Positions 1,327 to 5,002 of a DNA stretch of 10,529 bases are shown here, one piece after another. Under the pieces are notes generated by a model, which was not told where the DNA came from, did no database searches, and saw nothing but the letters and a program-made list of their open reading frames with translations. Position 1 is the stretch's first letter, and every line of letters begins with the position of its first letter. This DNA is from an uncultured Oscillospiraceae bacterium (GTDB lineage Bacteria > Bacillota > Clostridia > Oscillospirales > Acutalibacteraceae), in the NCBI GenBank assembly GCA_900552925.1, contig USBH01000032.1, forward strand, positions 1 through 10,529. The letters are read 5' to 3'. The position numbers and the translations under genes were made by a program.

Positions 1327-2685
1327 TTATTGTCGAATCAGCCGCACGACGGTCTCCACATGCGCGGTGCCGGGGAAGAGGTCGACGGGGGTGACGGCTT
1401 CGGTTTTGTAGCCGCTTTCGCCGAACAGCTTCAGGTCGCGCGCAAGCGTGGCCGGATCGCACGAGACGTAGACGACGCGCTTCGGGCGCATTGCCGCGAT
1501 CGTCGCGATCAGCGCGCTGTCGCAGCCCTTGCGCGGCGGGTCGATCACGATGACGTCCGGCTTTTCGCCGCGCTCGAACAGGATCCTTGCGGCTTCGGCC
1601 GCGTCGGCGCAGAGGAATTCCGCGTTTTGGATGGCGTTGCGTTCGGCGTTGCGCCGCGCGTTTTCGACGGCGGCCGGCACGATCTCCGCGCCGATGAGCT
1701 TTTTCGCATTTTTCGCCATCGAAAGCCCGATCGTGCCCGTGCCGCAGTAGAGGTCGAGCAGCGTCTCCGCGCCGGTCAGCCCCGCGTATTCGGCGGCCTT
1801 GCCGTAAAGGCGCTCGGCCTGCGTGCGGTTCACCTGGTAAAACGCGTGCGGCGCGATCTCGAAGGCGAGGCCGCAGAGCGTGTCGGTGATCGTGTCCTTG
1901 CCCCAGAGCGTGCGGCACGTTTTGCCGAGCACGACGTTCGTCCTTTCGCGGTTGATGTTGAGCAGGATGCCGGTGATTTCCGGCACGGCCTCGCGCAGCA
2001 TCTCGACGAGCAGCGCTTCCTCGTGCAGCGCGGCGCCGTTTGCGACGACGCAGACCATCATCTCGCCGCTCATTTCCCCGCGGCGCATGTACAGGTGGCG
2101 GAGCACGCCGCTGTGCGACGCTTCGTCGTAGACGCTTTCGCCCGAAACGGCGTACCACCGGCGGAACGCGGCGGCGGCGCGATCAAACGCTTCGGGCTGC
2201 AGCAGGCAGCTTTCCGTGTTCACGATGCGGTGGGAGTTGACGGCGTAAAAGCCGAGCTGCAGCGCGCCGTCCTTCGAAAGGCCGATGGGGAGCTGGCACT
2301 TGTTGCGGTAGCGGCAGCGGTCCGGCGCGGCGAGGATCGGCTCCATCTGAAAATCCTGCAGGCCGCCGATGCGCTCGAGCGCGTCGCGCACGCGCTGCGT
2401 CTTGATCTGAAGCTCCGCTTCGTAGCGGATGTGCCGGTACACGCAGCCGCCGCACTGCGCGGCGACGGGGCAGTCCGGCGCGATGCGGTCGGGCGAGGGC
2501 GCGAGCAGCTTTTCGAGCCGGCCGAAGGCGTACTTCCGCAGGACCTTGACGATGCGCACGGCGCACCGGTCGCCGACGGCGGTGCCCGGCACGAAGACAG
2601 CCATGCCCTCGATACGGCAGATGCCGCTGCCCTCGGCCGTCATGGCGGTGATATCGGCTTCAAAAATATCGTTTTTCCTGATCAT
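1327..2685 (-). CDS. rlmD: 23S rRNA (uracil-C5)-methyltransferase RlmD/RlmCD (RumA family)
   Basis: This 452-residue enzyme uses S-adenosylmethionine to make 5-methyluridine in 23S rRNA. E. coli RlmD modifies U1939; the Gram-positive relative RlmCD modifies both U747 and U1939, so dual specificity is possible here. The N-terminal TRAM domain spans about residues 1-57. An iron-sulfur cluster site follows: C72, C78, C81 and, further on, C160. The SAM pocket is LLDLYCGTGTIGLSMA (309-324) and the substrate motif is IDPPRKGCD (381-389). The nucleophile is C409 in YVSCDP, and the likely general base is E444 in AHVETVV. Length and all key residues match intact family members. The start is supported by GGAGG at 2693-2697, 7 nt upstream of the ATG. 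Upstream lies an unusual leader with alternative inverted repeats (see 2694-2780). It leads the APH and MmcQ genes as the first gene of a probable operon. No convincing promoter was found; a weak candidate lies near 2805-2835. Confidence 0.95.
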   Translation of the reverse strand: MIRKNDIFEADITAMTAEGSGICRIEGMAVFVPGTAVGDRCAVRIVKVLRKYAFGRLEKLLAPSPDRIAPDCPVAAQCGGCVYRHIRYEAELQIKTQRVRDALERIGGLQDFQMEPILAAPDRCRYRNKCQLPIGLSKDGALQLGFYAVNSHRIVNTESCLLQPEAFDRAAAAFRRWYAVSGESVYDEASHSGVLRHLYMRRGEMSGEMMVCVVANGAALHEEALLVEMLREAVPEITGILLNINRERTNVVLGKTCRTLWGKDTITDTLCGLAFEIAPHAFYQVNRTQAERLYGKAAEYAGLTGAETLLDLYCGTGTIGLSMAKNAKKLIGAEIVPAAVENARRNAERNAIQNAEFLCADAAEAARILFERGEKPDVIVIDPPRKGCDSALIATIAAMRPKRVVYVSCDPATLARDLKLFGESGYKTEAVTPVDLFPGTAHVETVVRLIRQ

Positions 2686-2875: not shown

Positions 2876-2904
2876 TTGACAATCGATATTCCGGTCGCTA
2901 TAAT
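2876..2904 (+). promoter_or_regulatory. Perfect consensus sigma-A promoter of candidate sRNA
   Basis: TTGACA (2876-2881), a 17-base spacer and TATAAT (2899-2904) form an exact consensus housekeeping promoter on the plus strand. The predicted start is near 2911. No plausible protein gene lies downstream before the terminator ending at 3019, so it most likely drives a short non-coding transcript. It points away from rlmD. Confidence 0.88.
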
Positions 2905-2910
2905 AAAGGC

Positions 2911-3019
2911 GTAGTCAATGATTACGAGCTCTGCGGTAAGGATTTACCGCGACTTTTCAATACAACTCCTCCCCAAAAGAGAGCAAAAGGCGAGAATTTT
3001 TCTCGCCTTTTGCTCTTTT
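2911..3019 (+). ncRNA. Candidate small RNA with C-rich single-stranded segment
   Basis: About 109 nt separate the predicted start of a perfect promoter from the end of a strong terminator, and the segment has the build of a bacterial small RNA. A 5' hairpin is GTAGTC-AAT-GATTAC (2911-2925). A second is GCGGTAA-GGAT-TTACCGC (2933-2950, 7 perfect pairs). An apparently unpaired linker follows (2951-2979) containing ACTCCTCCCC (2965-2974), and then a 17-bp terminator hairpin with a U run. C-rich loops of this kind let several Gram-positive sRNAs pair with GGAGG ribosome binding sites of target mRNAs; that role here is inference. I recognise no known RNA family. An ATG at 2918 opens a 53-codon frame, but it has no RBS and reads through the terminator. 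A short mRNA leader or a decayed gene remnant is the main alternative. Confidence 0.6.
2975..3019. terminator. Bidirectional intrinsic terminator
   Basis: A 17-bp perfect stem, AGAGCAAAAGGCGAGAA (2980-2996) with its complement (3000-3016), encloses a three-base loop. It is followed by TTT on the plus strand, and on the minus strand by TCTTTT formed by the A-rich left flank. It lies between the candidate sRNA (plus) and the stop of the D-2-hydroxyacid dehydrogenase (minus, 3063), and would end transcription from both sides. Confidence 0.9.
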
Positions 3020-3062
3020 CTGCGGAAAAAATCAAAAGGCGGGAAACCGCATGGCCGGCCCG

Positions 3063-4013
3063 TCAGGAAACGACGTTGACCGGCTGCCCGGCAAGAAACG
3101 CGCGCAGATTGCCGGCGACGGCGTCGATCAGCCGCAGGCGGGCTTCGCGGGAAGCCCACGCGATGTGCGGCGTGATCAGGCAGTTTTTGGCGGTGAGCAG
3201 CGGGTGGTCCGGGCGCGGCGGCTCCTCGGCCATCACGTCGAGCCCGGCGCCGGCCAGACGGCCGCTGTTGAGCGCGTCCGCAAGGGCGTTTTCGTCCACG
3301 AGCGCCCCGCGCGCCGTGTTGATGAGCAGCGCGGTGGGCTTCATGCGCGCGAGCACCGATGCGCCGACGATGCCGCGCGTTTCGTCGGTCAGGGGGCAGT
3401 GGAGTGAGACGACGTCGGCGGTTTCAAACAGCGTTTCGAAGCTGCACCAGGTGCAGCCTGTAGGCAGCGCGCGCTGCGTGCGGCTGTGCACGAGGACGCG
3501 CATGCCGAGCGCCAGACCGAGCTGCGCGACGGCGCGGCCGATGTTGCCGAAGCCGAGGATGCCGAGCGTTTTGCCGGAAAGCTCGAGGATCGGCGCGGTG
3601 GTGTGCGTCGCCTCGACCGCGTCGTTCCAGCCGCCGCTGCGCGTCACGGCGCTGAGGTGTTCGACGCGGCAGCACAGCGCGAGCAGCAGCGCAAAGGTGA
3701 GCTGCGCAACGGTTTCGACGCAGTACAGCGGCACGTTGCAGACGGTGACGCCCTTCTCGCGCGCGGCGCGGACGTCGATCGTGTTGTAGCCGGTCGCGAG
3801 CGTGCCGATGTAGCGCAGCTTCGGCAGGGCGTCGAGCACGGCGCGGTTCAGCACGATGCGGTTGACGATGAGCGCTTCCGCGTCCCGCGCGCGCTTTACA
3901 ACGCAGTCCGCCGGCGTGGAATCGTAGACCGTGACGCGGCCGAGCGCCTCGAGCGGCGCCCACGAAAGGTCGCCGGGGTTCGTCGTCCCGCCGTCCAGAA
4001 CCACAATATCCAT
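3063..4013 (-). CDS. D-2-hydroxyacid dehydrogenase, glycerate dehydrogenase/hydroxypyruvate reductase-like
   Basis: This 316-residue cytosolic NAD(P)-dependent oxidoreductase interconverts a 2-oxoacid and its D-2-hydroxyacid. The Rossmann motif G154-F-G156-N-I-G159 follows LSGKTLGIL. The catalytic triad of the family is present: R235 in NTARGALVDE, E264 in MAEEPP and H283 in TPHIAWAS. The N-terminal MDIVVLDGGTTNPGDLSW and the YIGTLATGYNTID block resemble the glycerate dehydrogenase (HprA) branch more than SerA. There is no ACT domain, so serine-pathway PGDH is unlikely. Exact substrate is not settled; hydroxypyruvate/glycerate is the best guess. The start is supported by AGGAGGG (4022-4028), 8 nt upstream. 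It has its own promoter (4057-4085) and a terminator just downstream, so it is monocistronic. Confidence 0.92.
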   Translation of the reverse strand: MDIVVLDGGTTNPGDLSWAPLEALGRVTVYDSTPADCVVKRARDAEALIVNRIVLNRAVLDALPKLRYIGTLATGYNTIDVRAAREKGVTVCNVPLYCVETVAQLTFALLLALCCRVEHLSAVTRSGGWNDAVEATHTTAPILELSGKTLGILGFGNIGRAVAQLGLALGMRVLVHSRTQRALPTGCTWCSFETLFETADVVSLHCPLTDETRGIVGASVLARMKPTALLINTARGALVDENALADALNSGRLAGAGLDVMAEEPPRPDHPLLTAKNCLITPHIAWASREARLRLIDAVAGNLRAFLAGQPVNVVS

Positions 4014-4178: not shown

Positions 4179-4658
4179 TTAAGTTCCAAAACAGCTAATC
4201 GTGAAATCGACTGATACGTCTTCGGCAGAATCAATCCGTTTTACAGAGAGTGTAAAATAGCCTCCGGGGCAAATCTTGCAAATGACATTATCTTGTTCTG
4301 CGTCTGTACTGACGCAGAGGACGTCTTTGAAAAGGTGTTGACGATTACCATTGCTGTCATACGAAGCCAGCGTATAAAGCATTTGTACGTTAGCGGGGGA
4401 ATTCAAATCTAATTGAGCAAAACTATATGGGCCAGATTCGAATTGTTCACTTTTCTCAAACAGAACATCTTGGTATGTATCTTGAAGAGTTAGATTTACC
4501 GTTTTAGCGGATTGATTTTCGATAGATGTCGAGGATTGGCATCCAACAAGAACACTAAAGGTCAAAGATAAAAGAAGGATGCAAAAAATTCTTTTAGCCA
4601 TAACCGTACTACTCATTTTTCGGTGTAAGCCGATTGCGAGGATTTTTTTGGCTTTCAT
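4179..4658 (-). CDS. Hypothetical lipoprotein
   Basis: I do not recognise the family. From the ATG at 4658 the protein has 159 residues. A basic N-region precedes a hydrophobic stretch (about 22-38, RIFCILLLSLTFSVLV) ending in the lipobox L37-V-G-C40, so it is probably exported, cleaved before C40 and anchored to the outer face of the membrane by a lipid. The mature part is polar, rich in S, Q, D and beta-type segments, with three cysteines near the end (C127, C130 and C156; C115 is a fourth), including an IC-K-IC-P stretch at 126-131. The start at 4658 has GGAGG (4667-4671) 8 nt upstream. That leaves an unusually long signal region, and internal ATGs (for example 4601) would give a standard-length signal but lack a good RBS. 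It stands alone with its own promoter and terminator. Its codons are clearly more AT-rich than all other genes here, which suggests acquisition by transfer. Confidence 0.75.
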   Translation of the reverse strand: MKAKKILAIGLHRKMSSTVMAKRIFCILLLSLTFSVLVGCQSSTSIENQSAKTVNLTLQDTYQDVLFEKSEQFESGPYSFAQLDLNSPANVQMLYTLASYDSNGNRQHLFKDVLCVSTDAEQDNVICKICPGGYFTLSVKRIDSAEDVSVDFTISCFGT

Positions 4659-4940
4659 TACTAAGACCTCCAATAAAAATATTTTTGTATCAAGCGGAAA
4701 TATCCGATAATACCAAAGAAAAGTCTATCAAAAGTGCAATAAATAAATAATTTTCGCGTTAAAAATAAGATTTTTATATATTTTATGCTTACAATATATA
4801 TCAAAATTAGAGTGATGTCAACAACTTACTTTTACGGGAGAATATATATTCAATTTGTTTTCGGGCTAAAAATGCGAGGTATCCAATTGGGCAGTCAAGA
4901 TTCAATGATTTGTATAGATTCCCCTTTTGAATTATAGATG
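4659..4940. other. AT-rich intergenic region
   Basis: This spacer contains the lipoprotein promoter (4793-4821) and its leader of roughly 128 nt. The rest is low in GC with A/T runs. A 21-codon plus-strand frame at 4872-4937 has no RBS and is not called. I see no repeats, tRNA or transposon ends that would explain the change in composition. Confidence 0.6.
4793..4821 (-). promoter_or_regulatory. Sigma-A promoter of the lipoprotein gene
   Basis: On the minus strand TTGACA (4821-4816), a 17-base spacer and TATATT (4798-4793) match the consensus at 11 of 12 positions. The predicted start near 4786 leaves an AT-rich leader of about 128 nt before the ATG at 4658. Confidence 0.82.
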
Positions 4941-4969
4941 TTTACAAGTTCTGTCAATGAGCGTATAAT
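4941..4969 (+). promoter_or_regulatory. Sigma-A promoter of the CmpB-type/PPTase operon
   Basis: TTTACA (4941-4946), a 17-base spacer and TATAAT (4964-4969) match the consensus at 11 of 12 positions. The predicted start near 4976 gives a leader of about 27 nt before the TTG start at 5003. Confidence 0.87.
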
Positions 4970-5002
4970 CAGGAAAAAACCGACTTGCGGGAGGCGTGTG
5001 TT

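Follow-up and report, generated by a model that had tools for sequence, protein, structure and literature searches.

A predicted small RNA gene with a conserved seed antisense to translation initiation regions in one family of Clostridia

Comparative analysis of a 10,529-nucleotide stretch of DNA from an uncultured Oscillospiraceae bacterium (the window) suggests that it contains a stand-alone small RNA gene, the product of which is predicted to act independently of Hfq and to block 30S subunits on several mRNAs by means of a seed antisense to translation initiation regions (TIRs), a reading that we consider likely. The candidate RNA would, in other words, most likely switch genes off by covering the places on mRNAs where ribosomes start. 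Features established in the sequences, namely the gene unit, its conservation, hairpin covariation, the register of the seed on translation starts and the failure to find Hfq, lead us to infer that the RNA would be transcribed, would pair with mRNA in the cell and would repress multiple targets. In the proposed mechanism, transcription would start at a strong promoter belonging to the gene and stop at an intrinsic terminator, and a covarying 5' hairpin together with this terminator would hold a stretch of 21-26 nt single-stranded. Within that stretch, CUCCUCCCC would pair with the Shine-Dalgarno (SD) sequence, CAA (CAU in three diverged relatives) would pair with the start codon after a 6-7 nt spacer, and UUUU or CUU would pair with the AAA/AAG codon that follows the start, so that the bound RNA would deny 30S subunits access to several mRNAs, with no need for Hfq.

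Table 1. Features of the candidate small RNA gene, in window coordinates
Feature	Position	Strand	Basis or remark
Sigma-70-type promoter TTGACA-17-TATAAT	2876..2904	+	exact match, 12/12
Predicted transcript, ~109 nt	2911..3019	+	start inferred from promoter, end from terminator; fold
Semi-conserved box GATTACGAG	2920..2928	+	GATTAYAAG-like in most of 26 aligned sequences; role unexplained
Conserved hairpin GCGGTAA-GGAT-TTACCGC	2933..2950	+	covariation, fold
Seed block CTTTTCAATACAACTCCTCCCCAAAAG	2953..2979	+	27/27 identical to L001
21-mer TTTTCAATACAACTCCTCCCC	2954..2974	+	anti-SD 2966-2974, anti-UUG 2958-2960, anti-AAAA 2954-2957
Unpaired C-rich ACTCCTCCCC	2965-2974	+	fold
Intrinsic terminator, U-rich end	2977..3019	+	20-bp stem 2977-2996/3000-3019 in fold

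The nearest locus of the genome scan, in Ruminococcaceae bacterium HV4-5-B5C (L001), has the complete seed block (27/27) in the same place, versus just 59% identity for the adjacent RlmD; it also has its own TTGACA-17-TATAAT, and its terminator sequence differs from that of the window. Among 50 named genomes (of 80 loci), L001 alone gave a match. In the fold of L001 (4617-4672), the terminator stem runs on through the CTCCCCAAAA of the seed, and GGGGAG follows a short T-run, so a read-through RNA would mask part of the anti-SD.

When 300 sampled genomes of one bacterial family were scanned for the 21-mer with three mismatches allowed, it was found exactly in 40 and with one mismatch in 4 (together 44 carriers), all remaining matches carrying three mismatches. 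The RNA is single copy in 43 of the 44; the exception, G217, has two exact 21-mers, and its second copy (L315) keeps the seed 21-mer with a different hairpin and terminator. A covariance search of relatives, as an earlier note on this DNA had proposed, recovered the same 44 genomes plus 6 weaker ones (50/300), using a model built from 26 copies that had themselves been chosen via the 15-mer CAATACAACTCCTCC. For 38 carriers the sequence itself was read, one of them being truncated by a contig end; the remaining 6 of the 44 rest on the model. The 38 loci compared below comprise the window and 37 of the 44 carriers picked by the same 15-mer, so conservation inside it is by construction there; the family-wide 21-mer scan is less biased.

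Beyond the family, a 17-mer with at most one mismatch matched 17 of 295 genomes of an order sample, 13 of which carry the RNA and all belong to the family draw, the other 4 being judged not the RNA. In a class sample, the model matched 6 of 291 genomes under strict filters (5 known family genomes and 1 spurious). No full RNA was therefore found outside the family in the order and class samples, to which extent it is confined to genomes of that family, and viral contigs gave no match to the 21-mer. Several candidates were discarded: the match in G029, which is a coding repeat although G029 is a family genome; those in G740, G867, G868 and G547 and at a second site of G059, as not the RNA; and the covariance-model matches in G265, G192 and a second one in G100, which are without the core seed. 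The matches in G265 and G192 (L351/L352) show a promoter-like region, CCTTTTCATTTTATTTTCTCTTCCCC and a terminator-like hairpin, and may represent a different C-rich small RNA; that in G100 (L353), with a TATAAT box, CTCTACCCTCCTCAATAATACCCCTC and a terminator-like hairpin, is possibly a further one.

The RNA had been called undescribed, and this agrees with the search of Rfam 15, in which no family reached its gathering cut-off in the window or in the loci of 20 relatives; matches at a permissive threshold were rejected, as all lay far below the cut-offs and were centred on the terminator. Likewise, literature searched by sequence string and by topic did not describe the RNA, in a scope that stops short of supplementary candidate lists such as that of PMC8040213.

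The gene lies between rlmD (1327-2685, minus strand; named from a Pfam match and the source names of similar proteins) and a D-2-hydroxyacid dehydrogenase gene (3063-4013, minus strand). The RlmD of the window shares 98% identity with a protein whose source label begins Candidatus Ruminococcus gallister, which points to a gut bacterium near Oscillospiraceae as the probable host. The exact consensus promoter reported earlier stands at the place given in Table 1; it is the single occurrence of TTGACA-17-TATAAT in the window, and none of 200 dinucleotide shuffles contains one. The best upstream promoter per locus (spacing 16-18) scores 12/12 in 26 of the 38 loci, 11 in 6, 10 in 5 and 9 in 1; 12/12 was reached in 12 of 1000 control windows, which come from the same loci and so possibly include real promoters. 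The gene would thus be transcribed from a strong promoter of its own. The 5' leader is longer in many relatives (for example L086, L092 and L104), with CAGAAA/CAGACA near the expected start, an element absent from the window. That promoter and hairpins came together by chance in an ordinary intergenic gap has next to no probability, being refuted by conservation: the 21-mer is exact in 40 of 300 genomes, and the promoter and terminator layout is common to all 38 loci.

Other features of the window were recorded as well. Promoter matches of 11/12 at 4793-4821 (minus strand) and 4941-4969 (plus strand) point apart, the former preceding a lipoprotein-like ORF (4179-4673, minus strand) that has no Pfam match and the latter a CmpB-type gene at 4985 (plus strand). 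The contig start (1-44) includes AGATGTGTATAAGAGACAG, which we take to be the Nextera transposase end; this segment is probably sequencing adapter left in the assembly, which makes ORFs there chimeric.

The span 2911-3021 folds at -46.4 kcal/mol (z -8.2), a stability equalled by none of 200 shuffles. A hairpin at the very first base, proposed previously, is present in the window (GTAGTC/GATTAC, 6 bp, 2911-2925) but is not conserved: allowing G-U pairs, it is complete in 1 of 38 loci, the window itself, with 5 of 6 pairs in 6 other loci and only 2 in the closest relative found (L127/G140). The second perfect hairpin, by contrast in conservation, covaries in relatives, with both-side changes in 5 of 6 consensus pairs (16 cells), which none of 500 shuffles equals, and with a covariation score of 0.384 that is likewise reached by none of 500 and compares with at most 0.166 for slid controls; for one of the five covariation measures, that of further pair types, 47 of 500 shuffles reach the hairpin value. 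The C-rich stretch described as single-stranded is indeed unpaired in the fold. A strong terminator stands where one had been placed, with a stem of 20 bp in the fold instead of the 17 bp claimed, and a stable hairpin plus a T-rich stretch follows the seed in 38/38 loci, with a stem sequence that differs between loci.

The surroundings of the RNA vary. Among 37 loci, the left neighbour is a divergent rlmD in 17 (16 by BLAST, plus the window) and a member of a single other gene family in 10 (the two that were scanned are TrpB-like), with others elsewhere; the right neighbour lies on the opposite strand in 17 (window included), on the same strand in 18, and was not found in 2. These assignments use simple longest-ORF calls with two coding-repeat rows dropped, and Pfam and NCBIfam were applied to 10 neighbours. 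A leader or attenuator acting in cis on the downstream gene could account for the 18 loci with a same-strand ORF, 9 of which encode a related protein (with a dockerin match in the two scanned, one just below the cut-off); the opposite-strand ORFs of the other 17, the differing neighbours and the terminator found after the seed in every locus make this very improbable. The earlier note had also named conservation only inside a longer mRNA or coding sequence as an observation that would speak against a small RNA, and the region proved instead to be an independent unit with varying neighbours and no ORF kept.

The same comparison bears on coding potential, for which no credible ORF had been claimed. 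No conserved ORF was found on either strand: an ATG ORF over the motif, like the 53-aa ORF of the window (2918-3079, plus strand), is missing in 13 of 38 loci, and each of the three frames is open in just 17 to 22 of them. A small protein gene, whether this plus-strand ORF or a minus-strand peptide starting from GGAGGAGTTGTA-TTG, is hardly credible; the reverse strand does read like an SD plus UUG start, yet minus-strand peptides are 4 to 77 aa long with only the first residue or two in common, and the covariation of the hairpin speaks for an RNA. A stand-alone small RNA gene is thus supported by a promoter-hairpin-seed-terminator unit kept amid changing neighbours, and the small RNA reading follows from this independence, the hairpin covariation and the lack of an Rfam match at the cut-off.

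The layout of the seed is that of an anti-SD, a spacer, an anti-start codon and the complement of AAA or AAG, such that its reverse complement, GGGGAGGAG-UUGUA-UUG-AAAA, reads as SD, spacer, start codon and Lys codon. Diverged seeds in the family are CTTCATAATACTCCTCCC (G040 and G162), CTTCATAATAACTCCTCCC (G033) and TTTTTCAATATATATCTCCCC (G202), and three of these copies (G033, G040 and G162) have anti-AUG instead of anti-UUG. When a variant seed was searched across the family, it was exact only in G040 and G162, the remaining matches having 1-2 mismatches.

The fit of the motif to translation starts was scored on 1604 genes of the G108 chromosome, of which 1.94 Mb was read, and on 336 genes in 400 kb of G140, both with our own simple gene caller; because of the bias of this caller towards SD and ATG starts, the SD part was left unchanged in the shuffles. 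The modal GGAGG-to-start spacing in G108 is 7 nt, matching that of the motif. When the motif is slid along all G108 starts, its best fit falls precisely on the start codon (register 0), with a mean of 8.87 matches and the next best, 8.46, at +1, and register 0 was the best of the registers tried for four motif versions in both genomes. At least 14 of 21 matches occur at 33 of 1604 G108 starts versus 0 of 1492 internal ATGs. For the main motif, in which AUG is mismatched at one base, the register effect is modest: in G108, the real mean is reached by 48 of 1000 shuffles and the real count by 16 of 1000, and in G140 the mean is reached by 62 of 1000. When scored on G108 and G140, the three variant seeds show a stronger preference for register 0 than the main form does, with the mean reached by 1, 2 and 15 of 1000 shuffles in G108 and by 2, 3 and 13 in G140. 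As all variants are best at register 0, the SD and start-codon complements are kept, and it is the spacer and start-codon type that vary.

A register-free scan of duplex energy gave no gain from the part of the seed outside the SD complement: 177 starts reach -16 kcal/mol or lower versus 195 (sd 46) for shuffles, 35 of 60 shuffles equal or surpass the real seed, and a query altered by one base to anti-AUG pairs with more starts (269). In addition, 27 of the 100 best-pairing windows in G108 lie at gene starts, against a background of 1.9%, and seeds with a shuffled 5' half place 24 and 30 there, so this enrichment is due to the SD part. Support for the earlier proposal, a trans-acting small RNA pairing with ribosome binding sites, comes as regards the pairing from the start-codon-registered complementarity to TIRs, though the energy scan adds nothing to it.

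A search for targets among translation starts had likewise been suggested, and it yielded the fit in start-codon register without a conserved target. Outside the RNA, the 44 carriers contain 19 sites that match the ATG form with at most three mismatches, versus 3 that match the reversed pattern; these 19 candidate starts are of mixed function, and an ORF of 128 aa or more begins at 17 of them. Sites with at least 18 of 21 matches included one target common to G083 and G266 only; over 198 orthologue pairs, no conserved target exceeded shuffles; the 12-mer GGAGTTGTATTG showed no excess outside the RNA (8 sites versus 10 for reversed-pattern controls); and the target searches found no single exact target that accounts for the invariant seed.

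These results have to be weighed against an alternative in which the partner of the small RNA is a protein or a different RNA; the near-invariant 21-mer would then be a site for a protein, complementary to the SD only by coincidence. Such a role would be consistent with a seed conserved beyond the needs of the SD part alone, with a 5' half that brings no energetic gain at gene starts, with the lack of a common target and with the unexplained GATTAYAAG box. We regard it as improbable, if worth keeping in mind, because diverged copies alter the spacer or start-codon complement yet keep the TIR register, and because the best sites cluster at gene starts; in the case of another RNA, pairing with rRNA (one G108 operon, 16S plus most of 23S) was rejected, as 52 of 60 shuffles pair equally well or better.

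For the preferred reading, repression of several mRNAs by TIR pairing, the question of a chaperone arises. Hfq was found in none of 80 family genomes (the 44 carriers and 36 of the 256 genomes in which the 21-mer has no match with one mismatch or fewer), a set that does not include the window's own genome and in which some may be incomplete; among 14 control genomes, the same search detected the protein in 5, including those of E. coli and B. subtilis. Pairing with mRNA, if it takes place, probably needs either no helper or a chaperone other than Hfq.

Known RNAs offer points of comparison. The csRNAs, CiaRH-dependent RNAs of Streptococcus, are described in passages of PMC3091779 as two stem-loops around an unpaired region that complements both the SD and the start codon, 53 of 61 having CAU and the rest anti-GUG or anti-UUG, with a size of 51-202 nt. 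Similarly, the window RNA is of comparable size, and its fold leaves an anti-SD unpaired between two stem-loops; in register with this stands an anti-start codon, which is anti-UUG in the main form and anti-AUG in the three diverged copies. Unlike csRNAs as portrayed there, it mostly occurs in a single copy per genome, has a consensus sigma-70 promoter and a main form that is anti-UUG, and belongs to a different bacterial group. CiaR-dependent promoters carry a TTTAAG repeat, and none was seen by eye at 2820-2904 of the window, the one sequence inspected. The working principle may be the same as that of csRNAs, as an analogy and not a shown homology.

RoxS, alongside RsaE, is a C-rich SD-binding RNA. 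In the relevant passages of PMC4132741, RsaE, RNAIII, SprD and FsrA are named as such RNAs, and LhrC of Listeria monocytogenes is presented as multicopy, with three redundant UCCC sites and no requirement for Hfq. Like RsaE/RoxS, RNAIII, SprD and FsrA, the window RNA is predicted to aim a C-rich unpaired motif at the SD; unlike them, its seed continues through the spacer to the start codon, and it has no Rfam match at gathering score. Its UCCC motif, as in LhrC (PMC4132741), lies in an unpaired stretch between stem-loops and is predicted to cover the SD, but it has one site, mostly one copy and an additional anti-start part. Given an accessible motif predicted to pair with the SD, as in the C-rich SD-binding trans small RNAs of Firmicutes, the candidate is classed as a new RNA family whose functional kind is already known.

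A wider role can be entertained tentatively, although we rate it as rather doubtful: a family-wide, Hfq-independent and probably constitutive small RNA, the near-invariant antisense of a whole TIR, that would serve as a general initiation competitor for Met-Lys starts. Its targets would then be genes starting with Met-Lys, such as those for secreted and transport proteins, and not one regulated target; this role is suggested by lineages that switch between anti-UUG and anti-AUG versions.

No small RNA of this type was found described in the literature for this gut Clostridia group. The analysis thus offers a candidate regulator that is conserved, easy to recognise and already linked to a pairing hypothesis, for bacteria in which Hfq was not found. 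In addition, a 21-nt seed with 40 exact copies provides a sharp test of what seed invariance may reflect, whether many targets, a protein, or one essential target.
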